Positions 7,416-53,503 of a stretch of DNA of 64,000 nt are shown here, in pieces. Source of the stretch: a virus. The DNA lies in the IMG/VR virus record IMGVR_UViG_3300029267_002727, positions 33,715 to 97,714 of that record. One strand, 5' to 3'. A model generated the notes under the pieces. That model made no database searches and had not been told where the DNA came from. It worked only from the letters and a program-made list of their open reading frames with translations. The translations under genes and the position numbers were made by a program. How positions within the stretch are numbered: position 1 is the stretch's first letter; every line of letters starts with the position of its first letter.

Positions 7416-7745
7416 TCATTTGAGCTCATCCTCCAGAGCGCCCAGGTATGGCTCTAGCCCATATCCCAAATGCTGGTCATGGGCATAGTTCAATAGGTCC
7501 TCGGCCGCCCTCCGCAGGCTCTTTTTGCGCCGGGGAAGAAAACCCACCAATCGCCCGAGGAAGTAGTCGTCCGCGAGTACCCTTAGCCCGATCAACCCAA
7601 AGGCCAAGATCGCCACCTTCACCGTGAAAACCCCCCACCCTGGGCCGACCATCTCCACCCCGCATACGCGAACTACCGCCCCCTGCAACATCCCCAGCAG
7701 AACCAGGATAACCAGTCTCGTTATAGACTCCCAGACGAAACGCAT
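7416..7745 (-). CDS. Small membrane protein with basic cytoplasmic tail
   Basis: 109 residues from the ATG at 7745, chosen over one at 7757 because GGGGGA sits at the right distance. Two hydrophobic segments (about 7-29 and 37-57) are followed by LPRRKKSLRRAAEDLLNYAHD, giving a cytoplasmic basic C-terminus by the positive-inside rule. First gene after the promoter at 7837-7864. Confidence 0.6.
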   Translation of the reverse strand: MRFVWESITRLVILVLLGMLQGAVVRVCGVEMVGPGWGVFTVKVAILAFGLIGLRVLADDYFLGRLVGFLPRRKKSLRRAAEDLLNYAHDQHLGYGLEPYLGALEDELK

Positions 7746-7836
7746 GTCATCCCCCATGCGAAAACAGGCGCGCCATTGCCGGAAAGCAATGACATGCCTG
7801 CCCCAATAGATGAAACAAGGACGCGCCCATATTTCT

Positions 7837-7864
7837 ATTTTAGCGCAAAAACCATAGCTGTCAA
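7837..7864 (-). promoter_or_regulatory. Sigma70-like promoter of the left minus-strand operon
   Basis: TTGACA (7864-7859), 16 bp, TAAAAT (7842-7837). An AATTG-CCCC element precedes the -35 box as in the other promoters of this window, but the GTTAAG half-site after the -35 box is missing. It overlaps the end of the gene at 7869-8090 and would drive the genes from 7745 down to 1. Confidence 0.75.
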
Positions 7865-7868
7865 GGGG

Positions 7869-8090
7869 TCAATTCAAGGGTACGATCTGCTCCTCCCGCA
7901 ATTCGAGGTCGTGCCGCTGCTCGTTGCAACTGGAACAGCGAATGATCCCCGCCCGCCCCGGAGAGATGTTGTCGTACGACTGGTCCATCAGGTGGCCCGT
8001 CTCATCGAAACGCGTGACAGCCCAGCCGATCACCTGCCGCTTCAGATATACACCACAAAGAGACCCGCAATGAGGACAAGCAGGAAGCAT
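7869..8090 (-). CDS. Zinc-ribbon protein
   Basis: 73 residues from ATG 8090 with GGGAGG upstream. CPHC at residues 5-8 and CSSC near residue 56 form a four-cysteine zinc ribbon. The segment between is polar with a WAVTRFDETG core. First gene after the promoter at 8187-8215. Zinc ribbons of this size bind DNA, RNA or protein; nothing here decides which. Confidence 0.65.
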   Translation of the reverse strand: MLPACPHCGSLCGVYLKRQVIGWAVTRFDETGHLMDQSYDNISPGRAGIIRCSSCNEQRHDLELREEQIVPLN

Positions 8091-8186
8091 ACCAACCTCC
8101 CCACAGACCAAGAGGGCGCCCACGAGCCCGTCCGATGTGTGCGTAACTCCGTGGCGCCCTCACCAGCATGTCTGATAAGCGCTTCA

Positions 8187-8215
8187 ATGATACCACGGGA
8201 GAGGCAGGCAGTCAA
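8187..8215 (-). promoter_or_regulatory. Sigma70-like promoter upstream of the zinc-ribbon gene
   Basis: TTGACT (8215-8210), 17 bp, TATCAT (8192-8187) on the minus strand, with the palindrome CCAATTGG about ten bases upstream of the -35 box. No GTTAAG half-site. Between the last minus-strand gene and the first plus-strand gene, so this region is the divergent switch point of the left part of the window. I could not find an equally good plus-strand promoter here. Confidence 0.65.
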
Positions 8216-8277
8216 GAGGCCAATTGGCATGCCCAACCTTAATGCGCGCGCCAGTCAGAATAGGTAGTAGTAATGAC

Positions 8278-8305
8278 TGTAGATGAAGGTGGGGTCGCAT
8301 CTACA
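8278..8305 (+). other. Hairpin in the leader of the first plus-strand gene
   Basis: Perfect 8-bp inverted repeat TGTAGATG / CATCTACA with a 12-base loop, ending 15 bases before the GGAGG of the gene at 8333. May act on translation or mRNA stability. Confidence 0.5.
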
Positions 8306-8332
8306 ACAAAATCATATAAGGAGGCAGGGGCA

Positions 8333-8551
8333 ATGTCAATCGTAGACCTGGATCAAGACAAGCGCGCAGCATTCGCAATGTACTTTTACGGCCATCGCGC
8401 GAGCCTGAATAAGGCCCTTGCAATGGCGGGGCTCTCTTATCTCGATCAAGAGGCCGCTTTGTTCGTTCGTCCTAATATGCCCATCAATGCCGAGATTCTC
8501 GACAATGGGGATATTATCATTCGTAGGCGCTGGCAACGACCAGTGCGCTAG
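8333..8551 (+). CDS. Hypothetical small protein
   Basis: 72 residues, ATG 8333 with GGAGGC upstream. Ends in ILDNGDIIIRRRW, resembling NDAGDIIIIRSRF in the protein at 8822, so the two may be distant relatives. Soluble. First gene of the plus-strand region. Confidence 0.6.
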   Translation: MSIVDLDQDKRAAFAMYFYGHRASLNKALAMAGLSYLDQEAALFVRPNMPINAEILDNGDIIIRRRWQRPVR

Positions 8552-8566
8552 TATAAGGAGAATAAG

Positions 8567-8704
8567 ATGCACAGCTATGGCGACGATCACAACCCGATGC
8601 TCCGTATCCTGCTCATTGCACCGTTCGCGGCAGCAGTCGTCATGTTGGGGATGTATCTGATCCCCACCATCAGCACCATTATGGCGACACTCACCTCGTT
8701 CTAG
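8567..8704 (+). CDS. Very small membrane protein (45 residues)
   Basis: ATG 8567 after AAGGAG. Residues about 12-42 are hydrophobic with a proline kink (LLIAPFAAAVVMLGMYLIP), preceded by a polar HSYGDDHN head. One transmembrane segment. Too short for a family call. Confidence 0.6.
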   Translation: MHSYGDDHNPMLRILLIAPFAAAVVMLGMYLIPTISTIMATLTSF

Positions 8705-8711
8705 TCTCTAT

Positions 8712-8797
8712 CACCCATCCTTGTGGCAGCCTTCGGGCATTTGACTTGGATGGGTGCAGAGCATAGCACATACAACTGTGTATGTGCTGCGTTCTGC
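8712..8797 (+). ncRNA. Structured intergenic RNA element with UUCG tetraloop
   Basis: Two adjacent structures between the genes at 8567 and 8822. The first pairs CACCCATCC (8712-8720) with GGATGGGTG (8748-8756) and holds an inner GCC-TTCG-GGC tetraloop hairpin (8729-8738). The second pairs AGCACATACA (8765-8774) with TGTATGTGCT (8779-8788), clamped by GCAGA / TCTGC outside. The GGAGG of the next gene follows directly. No known riboswitch class was recognised. Confidence 0.6.
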
Positions 8798-8821
8798 ACA
8801 ATATCATATAGGAGGAAGATC

Positions 8822-9007
8822 ATGAAGACAACAGTATTGGTATTCAAGAACGATGCAGGGGACATCATCATCATTCGTAGCCGCTTCTCCTTGAGCGAGG
8901 CCGATCCCGCCAAGCTCTCGCCGTTCGAGCGCTGTGTGGCAGCAAAGGCCAGGGAGAAGGGGCTGCACGTAGAGATTGGGGAGCTCACAATCCCCAGCCC
9001 CGCATAA
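8822..9007 (+). CDS. Hypothetical small protein
   Basis: 61 residues, ATG 8822, AGGAGG upstream. Begins TTVLVFKNDAGDIIIIRSRF, then a helix-rich, Lys/Glu-rich part. Possibly related to the protein at 8333 through the GDIII-R segment. Preceded and followed by strong RNA hairpins. Confidence 0.6.
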   Translation: MKTTVLVFKNDAGDIIIIRSRFSLSEADPAKLSPFERCVAAKAREKGLHVEIGELTIPSPA

Positions 9008-9019
9008 CAATATACACCT

Positions 9020-9106
9020 GGCCCTATCCAGCATAGGGCCCAGGTCAGAATTGTCTATATGCAAATGTAGACAGTTCTGACCTGGGAGCGCTCCGTTGTG
9101 GAGCGC
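9020..9106 (+). ncRNA. Three-hairpin RNA cassette, copy 1
   Basis: Three consecutive hairpins: GGCCCTAT/ATAGGGCC (9020-9040), a 19-bp stem (9039-9057 with 9068-9086, one wobble) closed by the loop TATGCAAATG, and GCGCTCC/GGAGCGC (9088-9106). The same order of hairpins and the identical loop recur at 9468-9561 with different stem sequences, so the fold rather than the sequence is conserved. It lies in the leader of the gene at 9147. Confidence 0.7.
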
Positions 9107-9146
9107 CTATATATGCTCTCTCTTCAGAGGGCAGGAGGTTATTAGC

Positions 9147-9455
9147 ATGAACGCCATCAAGTTTGACGGGCTGCTCTTTCTCAGTATCGACAAGCTGGCA
9201 GCTTACATCGGCCGTCGATATGGTTATCTGGCAGGCGTGCCAGAGGATCACCCTCAGATCGCTGTTGTGTCTGCTCTGCACGGGCTCAGCGAAGAATACT
9301 TCTTTGATCTCGAGGGCATAGCTGTGCAGAGGCCAAGGCACGACTGGCCAGAAACCCCGCAATGGGCCAAGGATATGGCAGAGAGCTACGGCTACCCACA
9401 ACCCTCTTATGAGGAGGACGACATAGCCGATGGGCAATGCACTATGTGGGACTAA
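9147..9455 (+). CDS. Hypothetical protein
   Basis: 102 residues, ATG 9147 with AGGAGG. Helical N-terminal part with FLSIDKLAAYIGRRYGY, then an acidic, Pro/Tyr/Trp-containing tail. No family recognised. Flanked on both sides by the two copies of the three-hairpin RNA cassette. Confidence 0.6.
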   Translation: MNAIKFDGLLFLSIDKLAAYIGRRYGYLAGVPEDHPQIAVVSALHGLSEEYFFDLEGIAVQRPRHDWPETPQWAKDMAESYGYPQPSYEEDDIADGQCTMWD

Positions 9456-9467
9456 CAACTAAATAGA

Positions 9468-9561
9468 GGGCCCTGTACTAGCAGGGCCCCAAACCAGAAT
9501 TGCCTATATGCAAATGTAGACAATTCTGGTTTGGGATGCGGGGGTAATAGTGCCCCCACAT
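9468..9561 (+). ncRNA. Three-hairpin RNA cassette, copy 2
   Basis: GGGCCCTG/CAGGGCCC (9468-9489), then a 19-bp stem (9488-9506 with 9517-9535, one C-A mismatch) with the same 10-base loop TATGCAAATG as copy 1, then ATGcGGGGG/CCCCCaCAT (9536-9561). AGGTCAG/CTGACCT of copy 1 is replaced by AAACCAG/CTGGTTT here, a compensatory change. Confidence 0.7.
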
Positions 9562-9566
9562 GTTAA

Positions 9567-9708
9567 TGGGCCATTGCTGAGAGCCCCGCGAGAAGCCAAG
9601 TCAGGCTACATACCTTGGGCTTGCCCTCCGTATAAGTAGCTGCCGTGCGACCAACACGGTACTGGCGTAGCAGGAGACGTCCTGCGCGGGCTTCTCAGCA
9701 GTGGCCCA
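9567..9708 (+). ncRNA. Large multibranched RNA structure
   Basis: A long closing stem pairs TGGGCCA (9567-9573) with TGGCCCA (9702-9708), TGCTGAGA (9575-9582) with TCTCAGCA (9693-9700), and GCCC plus GCG (9583-9590) with CGCGGGC (9685-9691). It encloses small hairpins AGCC/GGCT (9594-9607), CCGTG/CACGG with a 7-base loop (9643-9659) and GCAGGA/TCCTGC (9670-9685). It ends in a T-run and then the AGGAGG of the next gene. It could be a leader, a regulatory RNA or a terminator with readthrough; no known class matched. Confidence 0.6.
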
Positions 9709-9733
9709 TTTTTCTATAGGAGGTGTATAGGAA

Positions 9734-9874
9734 GTGCGCAATGGAAAGGCCGCAGTATATATCGTGCTTGCGGCGAGCCTGGTTTGCGCAGGGCTCGCCT
9801 CGCCCCTGATCCTGGAGGCGCTGGAGTTCATCGCCCAAGTCCTATGGTACATGTTCCTGGGGCCTATTCAGTAG
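9734..9874 (+). CDS. Very small membrane protein (46 residues, GTG start)
   Basis: GTG 9734 with AGGAGGT ten bases upstream. Hydrophobic from about residue 7 to 42 with one charged LEALE break, so one long or two short membrane segments. Starts RNGKAAVYIVLAASLVCAG. Could equally be a secreted peptide with a signal sequence. Confidence 0.55.
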   Translation: MRNGKAAVYIVLAASLVCAGLASPLILEALEFIAQVLWYMFLGPIQ

Positions 9875-9886
9875 AGGAGGAATCCG

Positions 9887-10093
9887 ATGATCGAAAACGT
9901 GTACGGCAACCCCTGGATCCACATGATCAATCAGGCCATCCTGGCCAACCCGGCGCCCCTCGTGGCGCCCCCGTCCCACACCAAGGGCGTCTGCCCGCCT
10001 TACTCTGGGCCCTCCAAGAGGACCCGGGCCAAGCGTGCGGCCAAGCGTCACCCGCGCCGCGGCACAGGGAACTGCGGTAGGCAGCGCTCATGA
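9887..10093 (+). CDS. Small protein with basic tail
   Basis: 68 residues, ATG 9887 with AGGAGG. First half hydrophobic-polar, second half very basic (SKRTRAKRAAKRHPRRG), as in nucleic-acid or ribosome-binding tails. Ends in an ATGA overlap with the next gene. Confidence 0.55.
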   Translation: MIENVYGNPWIHMINQAILANPAPLVAPPSHTKGVCPPYSGPSKRTRAKRAAKRHPRRGTGNCGRQRS

Positions 10094-10275
10094 TCACCCT
10101 CGAGTATCAGTTCAAGTCGGATGCCGAGAGAGACTTTCTGGCCAGCTACATCTTCAACCAGGCCCTCGGCATGAAGGAGGTGGCAAAAGAGGCCGTCCTC
10201 CCAGGTGAGCGCGAGAAGCTAGAGAACAAGGCGCAGGCCCTGCGCCGGCTCGCGGTCGCGATCGACAACACATAG
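10090..10275 (+). CDS. Hypothetical helical protein
   Basis: 61 residues, ATGA-coupled to the gene before. Amphipathic helices with many Glu, Lys and Ala (EVAKEAVLPGEREKLENKA). No family recognised. Confidence 0.55.
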   Translation: MITLEYQFKSDAERDFLASYIFNQALGMKEVAKEAVLPGEREKLENKAQALRRLAVAIDNT

Positions 10276-10331
10276 GGGTTCCAGCTTGGGCGTCGTATCA
10301 AAACATCTTACACAGCACAAAAGAATAGCCT

Positions 10332-10433
10332 GCTGGCGGGCATTGTACACCAGCGCCTAACTGGTTGAAATAGACCAGACGAATCTGTAACCCGTCTCGT
10401 GGCGGGTGTGGCCTCCCAGCGGTTTGGGCGGCC
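10332..10433 (+). ncRNA. String of hairpins in a 270-base intergenic region
   Basis: The stretch 10276-10545 has no gene. It holds GCTGG/CCAGC (10332-10354), CTGGT/ACCAG (10361-10378), AGACG/CGTCT (10377-10397) and GGCC-CCCA/TGGG-GGCC (10410-10433), followed directly by the conserved leader at 10439. A tRNA was considered and rejected. Probably a structured RNA or a complex leader. Confidence 0.45.
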
Positions 10434-10438
10434 GAAAC

Positions 10439-10545
10439 GCGTAAGCTCGGCGGGGGCTTACGCAAAAACCTTAAAGCCTCTATAAGGTTTTTGCGTGTGC
10501 CCCGGCTACGGCTCGAGGCGCCAATCTTCCGTGGAGGTAGGTTCG
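10439..10545 (+). promoter_or_regulatory. Conserved structured 5' leader, copy A
   Basis: Hairpin P1 GCGTAAGC/GCTTACGC (10439-10463), hairpin P2 CGCAAAAACCTTA/TAAGGTTTTTGCG (10461-10495), and an almost invariant 53-base tail (10493-10545) ending at the start codon. P1 and P2 share the bases CGC (10461-10463), so they may compete. CCCCG (10500-10504) can pair with the P1 loop CGGGG. CTACGG (10506-10511) can pair with CCGTGG (10529-10534), which contains half of the GGAGG ribosome site. These are the marks of a cis-acting translational regulator. Confidence 0.65.
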
Positions 10546-10860
10546 ATGGGTATGTACTGCGACGTTTATGGGGTCGAGGTCAAGATGGCCGGCCTGCTCG
10601 CCGTTGCCGCTGACGAAGTCGTGGGTGGCGATGACTGCGGGGTCGTTGTCATCTCACGCGAAGACGCCATGGAGATCCTGTCCGTGATGCGTGGCGAACT
10701 GCTGAACGGCTGGGCCAACAAGGCCAACGTTTACAGTGGGGACGCCCCGCTTTCGGGTGTTCAGGATATCCTTCACTTCGCCGGTGATGTGGTCGCATTC
10801 AGGCAGCTCCTGCTATGGGTAGCCTATGAGAAAGGAGAAGAGGAGCTAGTGTTCGCCTGA
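10546..10860 (+). CDS. Hypothetical protein under the structured leader
   Basis: 104 residues, ATG 10546 nine bases after GGAGG. Soluble, mixed fold, begins GMYCDVYGVEVKMAGLLAV. Shares its whole 5' leader with the gene at 10980, so the two are likely co-regulated. No family recognised. Confidence 0.6.
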   Translation: MGMYCDVYGVEVKMAGLLAVAADEVVGGDDCGVVVISREDAMEILSVMRGELLNGWANKANVYSGDAPLSGVQDILHFAGDVVAFRQLLLWVAYEKGEEELVFA

Positions 10861-10870
10861 CAATCAAATA

Positions 10871-10979
10871 GCGCAAGTTCCAGCCGGGGCTTGCGCAGAG
10901 CTCACTCTCACAAGAGGGTGATCTCTGCGTGTGCCCCGGCTACGGCTCGTGGCACCAATCTTCCGTGGAGGTAAGTTCA
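10871..10979 (+). promoter_or_regulatory. Conserved structured 5' leader, copy B
   Basis: Same layout as copy A: P1 GCGCAAG/CTTGCGC (10871-10896), P2 16 bp with one mismatch (10894-10909 with 10914-10929), and the invariant tail (10927-10979). P2 has a different sequence from copy A but keeps its pairing. Here CCCCGGCT (10934-10941) is perfectly complementary to AGCCGGGG in the P1 loop (10882-10889), an 8-bp pseudoknot. Confidence 0.7.
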
Positions 10980-11684
10980 GTGTCTCAGTCCAAGTTTTCT
11001 CTCGCGTTGGTTGCGCTCTTGAGCGTGGCCCTCGGGGCCGTCCTGGCCCTGCTGATCGCTCGCCCCGCAGCCTCCGTGGCTGCCCCCCAGACCTCTGGCC
11101 CCGCGGCCTCCGTGGCTGCCCCCCAGGCCTCTGGCCTGTTGTCCCAGTCCGAGATGGAATCGCTGGCTGCCAATCGCGTGGAGTTCGTGCGTGAAGATGG
11201 CGCCCGCTGCACCATTCTCTCCAACGGCGAGCTCGACTGCGAGTGCTGCCAGTGCCAGCAGGAGGCCGCCCCGTGCATCAATACCACACCTGTGGTTACC
11301 GTGTCCGCACCCGTCACGTTCACGAAGGTCGTCACCGTACAACTCCCGTGCAAGGAAGTTGCTACCGAGGACGAAGAGGCGTTCCTGATCGACGATCCCC
11401 CGGATCGCCCCGATGATCCCGGTGATGAGCCTGACACGCCCGATGGGCCCGATACGCCTGATGACCCCGGCGATCCCGACACGCCCGATGATCCCGGTGA
11501 TGAGCCCGACACGCCTGACAAGCCCGACAGGCCAGCCGATGATGGCGACAAGGAGGGCAACGGGAACAATGGCGTGGGGAACGGCTATGACCCGCAGCCC
11601 AAGGGTGACCCCAAACCCAACGACACCGGGGACGATATGGGCCCCGGTAACCCAGACAACAAGGGCGGCAAGAAGGACAAGTAA
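10980..11684 (+). CDS. Membrane-anchored Asp/Pro-rich repeat protein (GTG start)
   Basis: 234 residues from GTG 10980. Residues about 6-27 are a signal anchor (FSLALVALLSVALGAVLALL). Two copies of AASVAAPQ follow, then a cysteine-rich patch (CECCQCQQ), a Val/Thr-rich strand region, and from about residue 140 a tail of DDPGDEPDTPD-type repeats ending GGKKDK. The tail is acidic, extended and probably outside the membrane. The tail DNA is built of short imperfect tandem repeats and can expand or contract. Such proteins act as spacers on cell or virion surfaces; the exact role is unknown. Confidence 0.7.
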   Translation: MSQSKFSLALVALLSVALGAVLALLIARPAASVAAPQTSGPAASVAAPQASGLLSQSEMESLAANRVEFVREDGARCTILSNGELDCECCQCQQEAAPCINTTPVVTVSAPVTFTKVVTVQLPCKEVATEDEEAFLIDDPPDRPDDPGDEPDTPDGPDTPDDPGDPDTPDDPGDEPDTPDKPDRPADDGDKEGNGNNGVGNGYDPQPKGDPKPNDTGDDMGPGNPDNKGGKKDK

Positions 11685-13802: not shown

Positions 13803-13812
13803 ACCGTTCTCT

Positions 13813-13836
13813 GGGGGAGCCCCTGGTGGCTCCCCC
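13813..13836 (+). terminator. Terminator-like hairpin
   Basis: Perfect 9-bp GGGGGAGCC/GGCTCCCCC with a 6-base loop, eleven bases after the stop of the 445-residue gene and just before the next promoter. It lacks a clear T-run, so it may be a weak or factor-assisted terminator or an mRNA end. Confidence 0.6.
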
Positions 13837-13869
13837 CACCTACTCAGGGGGCGAATGTGAATTGGCCCC

Positions 13870-13898
13870 TTGACAGGTGTTTAGTTGCATGGTAGAAT
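13870..13898 (+). promoter_or_regulatory. Promoter with CTTGAC-N4-GTTTAG operator, RMF-array unit
   Basis: TTGACA (13870-13875), 17 bp, TAGAAT (13893-13898). GTTTAG follows the -35 box after three bases, and GAATTGG lies just upstream, as in several other promoters here. Drives the genes from 13921 on. Confidence 0.8.
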
Positions 13899-16179: not shown

Positions 16180-16197
16180 TAACCATATCTGGTTATC
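16178..16197 (+). other. Inverted repeat at the stop of an RMF-like gene
   Basis: GATAACC / GGTTATC with a 6-base spacer, overlapping the stop codon at 16177-16179. An operator or a small hairpin in the mRNA. The rest of the 113-base gap holds the repeats listed next. Confidence 0.5.
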
Positions 16198-16248
16198 GAC
16201 CAGGGCACGCACGTAGGGGCCCAAAAGAGTGAAGACGTCAGACACCTG

Positions 16249-16281
16249 TGTAGCGCTACAGTAGCGTTACACCGCGTTACA
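16249..16281 (+). repeat. Operator-like repeats upstream of an RMF-like gene
   Basis: A perfect 12-bp palindrome TGTAGCGCTACA (16249-16260) followed by two more copies of its right half, GCGTTACA at 16264-16271 and 16274-16281. The three GCGYTACA units are spaced 11 and 10 bases, one helical turn, and the last one runs into the ribosome site of the gene at 16293. Confidence 0.6.
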
Positions 16282-16292
16282 GGAGATATAGC

Positions 16293-30737: not shown

Positions 30738-30742
30738 CCGAT

Positions 30743-30790
30743 TTTGCATGGGGAAGTGTATCAGATTTTTCGGTGCGCTTCCCCTGCAAA
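30743..30790 (+). other. Intergenic hairpin
   Basis: TTTGCA-t-GGGGAAG (30743-30756) pairs with CTTCCCC-TGCAAA (30778-30790): 13 bp with one bulge and a 21-base loop. It sits in a rare gap of the otherwise coupled gene chain, before a GGAGG site, so it may be an mRNA-processing or attenuation element. Confidence 0.6.
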
Positions 30791-30810
30791 TTTCACCTGG
30801 AGGTAACGAG

Positions 30811-53439: not shown

Positions 53440-53454
53440 GCGCGAATCGAGCCG

Positions 53455-53488
53455 GGGCGAGGGAGGGCCGAGAGGCTCTCCCCCGCCC
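53455..53488 (+). terminator. GC-rich hairpin after the annealing protein gene
   Basis: GGGCGAGGGAGGGCC pairs with GGCTCTCCCCCGCCC (one mismatch, one wobble) around a GAGA tetraloop. No T-run follows, so it is a partial terminator, an mRNA 3' protector or a processing site between this gene and the next. Confidence 0.55.
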
Positions 53489-53503
53489 TGTAGGGAGGCG
53501 CAG

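Follow-up and report, generated by a model that had tools for sequence, protein, structure and literature searches.

The genome analyzed here contains, at the head of its rightward gene block, at least five double-hairpin elements, two of which are the leaders—A and B—that a preliminary description of this DNA had reported before two genes, the other three (E1, E2, and E3) having been missed there. All five share one architecture, in which a P1 hairpin of 8–11 bp overlaps by 2–4 nt a strong P2 hairpin of ca. 35–48 nt, and they are placed one to a gap in five gaps preceding early genes, all within 2.3 kb (8712–10930). That the hairpins overlap, that their pairing is kept, that the transcribed strand folds better, and that the elements cluster we established by sequence and statistics; as to function, we tentatively put first, among the explanations considered, a structure-conserved intercistronic RNA made up of RNase III-type processing or stabilizing sites as in the T7 early mRNA, possibly with a co-transcriptional refolding in A and B. 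The source genome is unclassified and tailed-phage-like; and the window—the whole stretch of DNA analyzed, of 64,000 nucleotides—corresponds to bases 33,715–97,714 of the 97,714-base IMG/VR record IMGVR_UViG_3300029267_002727.

The five double-hairpin elements

With a strict tandem descriptor (P2 score ≥34, P1 score ≥20, overlap of −1 to +4), the whole record yielded exactly five matches on the + strand, namely E1, E2, E3, A, and B (Table 1), and on the − strand E2 and E3 again, with nothing more. The thresholds of the descriptor were fixed after the elements had been seen, and neither the clustering nor the shuffle result—no tandem pair when the five gaps were dinucleotide-shuffled 200 times—depended strongly on them. 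The descriptor found no match in T7 (8.5 kb), lambda, N4, or D3, and gave 1, 1, and 4 isolated matches in the higher-GC phages phiC31, NHagos, and phiAsp2, respectively. At each of the five elements the strength of P1 beside P2 lay in the top 0.3–2.3% of random positions; and in a scan for strong hairpins the two strongest folds of the + strand were located at 9037 and 10879, with the one at 9487 being high as well. E1–E3 lack the tail and the loop sequences of A and B, no loop or tail is common to all five, and the distance to the start codon is 22 nt in E1, 60 nt in E2, 198 nt in E3, and 50 nt in both A and B.

Table 1. Coordinates in the window of the double-hairpin elements, of the parts of leaders A and B, and of the genes behind those two leaders (the z-scores of E1–E3 were computed on whole gaps or elements).
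Feature	Start	End	Strand	Description
Element E1	8712	8799	+	P1 8712–8756; P2 8754–8799 (21 positions, tetraloop); 3-nt overlap; before gene at 8822; gap z −5.7
Element E2	9020	9086	+	P1 9020–9040; P2 9039–9086 (22 bp, tetraloop), then P3; before gene at 9147; z −8.5
Element E3	9468	9535	+	P1 9468–9489; P2 9488–9535 (22 positions), then P3; upstream of gene at 9734; z −8.7
Copy A, hairpin P1	10439	10463	+	GCGTAAGCTC ggcgg GGGCTTACGC, 10 bp
Copy A, hairpin P2	10461	10495	+	CGCAAAAACCTTA...TAAGGTTTTTGCG; first 3–4 nt overlap the P1 3' arm
Copy A, long hairpin	10449	10507	+	GGC.GGGG pairs with CCCC.GCT around P2 (the loop–tail strands previously read as a pseudoknot)
Copy A, conserved tail	10492	10544	+	53 nt; holds ATCTTC-CGT-GGAGGT (10524–10538), a small hairpin over the Shine–Dalgarno sequence
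Gene A	10546	10860	+	ATG start, 104 aa, no known family
Copy B, hairpin P1	10871	10896	+	GCGCAAGTTCC/GGGGCTTGCGC, 11 bp, tetraloop AGCC
Copy B, hairpin P2	10894	10929	+	CGCAGAGCTCACTCTC acaa GAGGGTGATCTCTGCG
Copy B, long imperfect hairpin	10871	10952	+	Minimum-energy fold, −56.2 kcal/mol; outer stem AGCCGGGG/CCCCGGCT
Copy B, conserved tail	10926	10978	+	53 nt; GGAGGT at 10967–10972
Gene B	10980	11684	+	GTG start, 234 aa, hydrophobic N-terminus, Pro/Asp-rich

Certain other structures were left out of the set: the region 13812–13882, where the tandem hairpins do not overlap and a promoter (13870–13898) lies inside; those at 30738–30795 and 53440–53500, which are single long hairpins; and 16180–16292, whose fold is weaker. 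In the first of these regions (13812–13898, + strand), a P1 (GGGGGAGCC/GGCTCCCCC) is followed by a P2 and adjoins a near-consensus promoter, TTGACA-17-TAGAAT with an extended TG, and the P1 loop CCTGGT is able to pair with ACCAG just ahead of an AGGAGG site. The two single hairpins, for their part, are situated on the + strand just before the ribosome sites of rightward genes, the fold of the + strand exceeding that of the − strand by 12.9 and 5.2 kcal/mol, respectively. Downstream of E3 and ahead of the ORF of 46 aa at 9734, furthermore, the + strand contains a 149-nt element (9563–9714) in which a closing stem of ca. 19 bp (AATGGGCCATTGCTGAGAG...CTTCTCAGCAGTGGCCCATT) encloses internal hairpins and is followed by TTTTTC. 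That element, with a fold z of −7.5 and no Rfam match, may possibly represent a small RNA that carries a terminator of its own.

The duplicated leaders and the genes behind them

The position originally assigned to the two leaders (10439–10979) proved correct, copy A being located at 10439–10548 and copy B at 10871–10982, as did the nearly invariant tail of 53 nt running up to the start codon, whose two copies are 94% identical. The likeness between A and B ends where the genes start (ATG 10546 and GTG 10980); the 20- and 19-mers of the tail occur at only these two sites in the window, with approximately 0 expected by chance; and the 109-nt leader has no place in the 97,714-base record beyond those of A and B. 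That a leader had been duplicated before unrelated genes was likewise upheld, the genes A and B being open reading frames, each behind a GGAGGT site, for which no shared family or connecting homologue was found. In the gene-B protein, a short run rich in Cys (CECCQCQQ) and a long tail rich in Asp and Pro were noted; the only domain match was a sub-threshold one to LapA_dom. Directly before copy A, a non-coding stretch of 163 nt on the + strand (10276–10438) carries more hairpins, GGCCtCCCAG cggt TTGGGcGGCC and others.

If, as one possibility, the conserved tail were protein-coding, translation would start at the in-frame GTG 10495 in A and GTG 10929 in B, from which codons both frames are open into the downstream gene, and the 53 nt would specify a shared N-terminus of 17 residues. 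This possibility we rejected as most improbable: three of the four codon differences before the start change the residue (R/W, R/H, and G/S), the fourth being silent; the upstream GTGs have no Shine–Dalgarno sequence, the GGAGGT being located 7 nt ahead of ATG 10546 and GTG 10980; and the end of the A/B similarity at the start codon speaks against coding as well.

Conservation of pairing

The upstream hairpins had been said to keep pairing with quite different bases, which statement the A/B alignment bears out, with 33 pairs kept and 0 broken. The pair changes comprise 3 that are two-sided and 5 that are one-sided through G-U exchange, plus an additional two-sided change at columns 4/23 of the alignment (T-A to C-G); as this one fits P1 only, the long hairpin having no need of it, each of two competing folds has some support. 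E2 and E3 have the upper part of P2 in common (AGAATTGYCTATATGCAAATGTAGACARTTCT); at its base, three adjacent pairs are changed on both sides (GGT/ACC to AAC/GTT), and there is also a U-G to U-A change in P2. The covariation evidence consists of these two pairs of sequences, A/B and E2/E3, and that from A/B—two sequences of the same genome—is suggestive only. Both the tail of A/B and the upper stem of E2/E3 have the look of modules that were duplicated recently and set before unrelated genes.

Competing folds in leaders A and B

Leaders A and B fold far better than their shuffles (z of −4.8 and −5.2, respectively), and the minimum-energy fold of both is one long hairpin without P1 (−53 kcal/mol in A and −59 kcal/mol in B). 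The sharing of CGC by P1 and P2 was confirmed in both leaders (or of 4 nt, if one further pair is counted); P2 alone comprises ca. 13–16 bp, to which the outer stem adds 7–8 bp. The P1 loop is indeed able to pair with CCCCGG(CT) in the tail, by 5 bp in A and by 8 bp in B, but the pseudoknot that had been read into this pairing was not borne out, the loop–tail pairing being nested around P2 and used without P1 in both minimum-energy folds. Since the GGGG and the CCCC both lie outside P2, that pairing constitutes, when P1 is not formed, the outer part of the long hairpin; and because the 10–11-bp helix of P1 runs through the same GGGG, a pseudoknot costs P1 pairs, so that P1, the long hairpin, and the pseudoknot compete. 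With P1 forced and the pseudoknot absent, the energy was 6.2 (A) and 8.8 (B) kcal/mol worse than that of the long nested hairpin. The tail strand being invariant, no two-sided change backs the loop–tail pairing; and the arrangement expected of an H-type pseudoknot, a loop–tail pairing alongside P1 with two-sided changes, was not found in A or B. Among the three competing folds we judge the pseudoknot to be the least supported, and—its energy having been estimated from the isolated duplex only—to be unsupported rather than excluded.

When folding was followed on the growing transcript, the predicted sequence of events was the same in A and B: P1 forms, then P1 together with P2, whereupon P2 gains pairs from P1, and the long hairpin results once CCCCGG appears. 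In most of the predicted folds the GGAGGT of the tail is paired within the small ATCTTC-CGT-GGAGGT hairpin. Mutually exclusive folds of this kind would suit a translational operator or riboswitch, in which a phage protein or a ligand would bind the A/B leader and gate the ribosome site, with one regulator serving two genes. Such a regulator would also be consistent with the conservation of the tail while both stems vary and with the placement of GGAGGT in a conserved small hairpin; and the leader of T4 gene 32, in which gp32 binds a true H-type pseudoknot located 67 nt before the start, provides a precedent for phage autoregulation (PMC3014915). That leader resembles A and B as a structured phage leader before a start codon and differs from them in that the pseudoknot is poorly supported in A/B, where its strands compete with P1. 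Recent duplication, however, may equally explain the conservation of the tail, and the supposed binding core is carried by no homologue found; E1–E3, moreover, with their differing tails, loops, and start-codon distances, are not like one fixed binding core joined to one expression platform. The riboswitch or autoregulatory reading of the preliminary description is therefore retained in so far as structure is kept while sequence changes, and is given up as the favored class; we place it second among the explanations, and hold it to be unlikely.

Strand preference, gene direction, and transcription signals

All nine of the elements examined have a more stable fold on the + strand than on the − strand (by 2.9–8.2 kcal/mol in the five core ones), owing to the G-U pairs of the + strand; this advantage favors a transcribed RNA over DNA palindromes, with a mild bias in that some of the nine had been picked from + strand folds. 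The leftward genes stop at ca. 7.8 kb and the rightward block begins at ca. 8.3 kb; and the minimum of the cumulative GC skew, at ca. 8–12 kb, coincides with the start of that block and with the double-hairpin cluster. This location near the switch in gene direction would be in keeping with sites acting at the level of DNA, be they palindromes for a phage protein, cruciforms of a replication origin, or recombination joints by which small early genes are swapped; and the recurrence of one leader before unrelated genes is what would be expected of a recombination joint. In the cluster K mycobacteriophages, likewise, 17-bp inverted repeats before gene starts have been ascribed to DNA binding (PMC3203893). 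In the present elements, by contrast, the arms vary with pairing kept, so that no common protein site is left; the better-folding + strand tolerates G-U pairs; and the Shine–Dalgarno sequence belongs to the conserved tail. A DNA-level function thus seems to us decidedly unlikely.

The comparison with cluster K can be carried further. There, the SAS motif of 13 bp (GGGATAGGAGCCC) occurs in 11–19 copies per genome, and the ESAS arms have a consensus with changes that do not support RNA pairing, for which reason the authors favor DNA binding (PMC3203893). The likeness lies in a repeated tail over the Shine–Dalgarno sequence, before unrelated non-structural genes, in gaps of >50 bp, with some inverted repeats just upstream; whereas here the sequence varies and the pairing is kept, the A/B tail has 53 nt and 2 copies, the SAS motif is absent from the A/B tails, and the arms have no consensus across the set.

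Three sigma-70-like promoters on the − strand (7864–7837, 8215–8187, and 8339–8311, matching at 11, 10, and 11 of 12) stand ahead of the leftward genes; no rightward promoter as good as these was seen in 7700–11000. No sequence matching a sigma-70-like promoter at 8/12 or better was found between E2, E3, A, or B and its gene; the end of E1 has a single candidate of 8/12, starting at 8795. On the + strand, no U-run follows the hairpins of any of the five elements and no terminator-like site is present there, in which circumstance we rejected them as intrinsic terminators.

If, alternatively, the elements controlled transcription in cis, they might act as attenuators devoid of a U-run, in the manner of the "V-shaped" double hairpins, or as antiterminators like the HK022 put RNA on the passing polymerase, with the refolding from P1 to the long hairpin—a predicted order that would fit—as the switch. 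V-shaped tandem hairpins, a proposed class of intrinsic terminators, are quoted, for 1060 genomes, at 0.1% of the gene ends that bear hairpins (PMC8355165) and resemble our elements in that two hairpins adjoin between genes with no spacer; yet those were sought at operon ends, whereas the present ones are found within a gene block and immediately ahead of ribosome sites, with hairpins that overlap. The put RNA, for its part, has ca. 70 nt and two stem-loops, and is present twice per genome downstream of early promoters (PMC9378689), to which E2 and E3, with P1–P2 of 67–68 nt, are similar in size, in the two adjacent stem-loops, in duplication, and in early-operon location. However, each early operon has a single put element (putL or putR), close to the promoter and with stems and bulges conserved in sequence, in contrast to five elements in one block with differing sequences, no Rfam match, and a much longer second stem. 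Five successive terminators, lacking U-runs as they do, would moreover shut one operon off, while an antiterminator would be needed once and not per gene. Control of transcription is in our opinion unlikely too, although less so than the DNA-level sites.

Searches for relatives and for known classes

In agreement with the earlier statement that no known RNA class was recognized, Rfam gave no match in the window at the gathering score, and relaxed scans returned only sub-threshold chance matches to miRNAs and snoRNAs. No third copy of the A/B leader was detected by 19–20-mers with 3 mismatches, by BLAST, or by the covariance model R1, the covariance-model matches on the − strand being the same two palindromes, A and B. 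An 18-mer match to the tail in another phage, situated inside a coding region, was rejected as a chance match; other tail patterns and those of E2/E3 gave nothing in the viral contigs or the genome contigs; and searches with gene A, gene E2, and the leader region against phages found nothing. On the further covarying homologues that had been called for, the outcome is accordingly divided: none was found elsewhere, and relatives of the architecture do exist in the same genome. As for a sequence-conserved core with covarying stems, what we observed is two copies in one genome with consistent covariation.

With respect to the phage as a whole, no PHROG match at E ≤ 0.001 was obtained for the terminase, the portal, or other large proteins of the structural block. 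Relatives of the terminase and portal were absent among the phages searched, as were those of the terminase among the bacterial genomes; and both proteins were found in one contig only, IMGVR_UViG_3300017987_002670 (35,149 bases), at 100% identity, which contig does not cover the leader region. A helicase shows distant similarity to those of actinobacterial and other phages, the identity being at most 29% among the listed matches that cover 80% or more of the query.

Discussion

The differing loops and tails, the varying distance to the start codon, and the lack of both U-runs and a good promoter are best fitted by generic double-stranded intercistronic elements; and the set looks more like mRNA structures for generic cutting, stabilizing, or timing than like a ligand-sensing riboswitch. 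What is generally expected of an RNase III site is a largely paired stem of near 20 bp, or about two turns of the helix, in a transcribed gap. Assuming transcription, that size is attained by the 20–22 paired positions of P2 in E1–E3, and by P2 together with the outer stem in A and B. The RNase III sites of the T7 early mRNA (R0.3–R1.3) are similar in being strong hairpins that lie in the gaps separating early genes, immediately ahead of the following ribosome site, and that recur along one early transcript. The T7 gaps as folded here, however, gave single hairpins with stems of 10–13 bp, whereas the present elements are tandem, with a 2–4-nt overlap and stems of at least 20 bp; the likeness to T7 is therefore one of function and not of membership.

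We propose that one early polycistronic mRNA would carry all five elements as long double-stranded intercistronic structures, whose P2 stems—extended in A and B by the outer stem—would be of a size for cutting by the host RNase III. From this mRNA the cuts would yield pieces of gene size whose ends are defined, and they would set, for the gene that follows, both stability and translation; of this proposal, the co-transcription, the cutting, and the effect on the next gene are the steps that we infer. In A and B, the ordered refolding, in which the shared bases would serve as the starting point of branch migration, might determine when the cut is made or when the ribosome site, which lies within the small hairpin, is exposed.

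Certain features weigh against RNase III-type processing. The hairpins seen in T7 are single and shorter, and the tandem descriptor found none there; neither P1 nor the overlap between P1 and P2 is required by RNase III cutting, and the invariance of the whole tail in A and B asks for a sequence-specific factor or a recent duplication. If, alternatively, the five elements represented a new class of cis-acting RNA, the 2–4 shared bases would constitute a built-in toehold, and a fixed series of folds would time cutting, the behavior of the polymerase, or ribosome access gene by gene, the cassettes being duplicated and re-used before unrelated genes; such a class we consider rather unlikely. RNase III-type processing or stabilization remains the explanation that we favor, in the tentative terms stated at the outset.

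Should the set work as proposed, it would offer a compact group, found in nature, of five leaders with tandem hairpins that retain their structure and are free in sequence, so that the rules of phage mRNA processing might be read by comparison within one genome; and the T7 type of intercistronic processing would extend to an unrelated phage lineage, one for which we found no close relative. If the shared bases do act as a toehold, the leaders would provide a natural case of ordered RNA refolding during transcription; and if RNase III simply cuts all five elements, an ordinary strategy will have been met with in a new phage.
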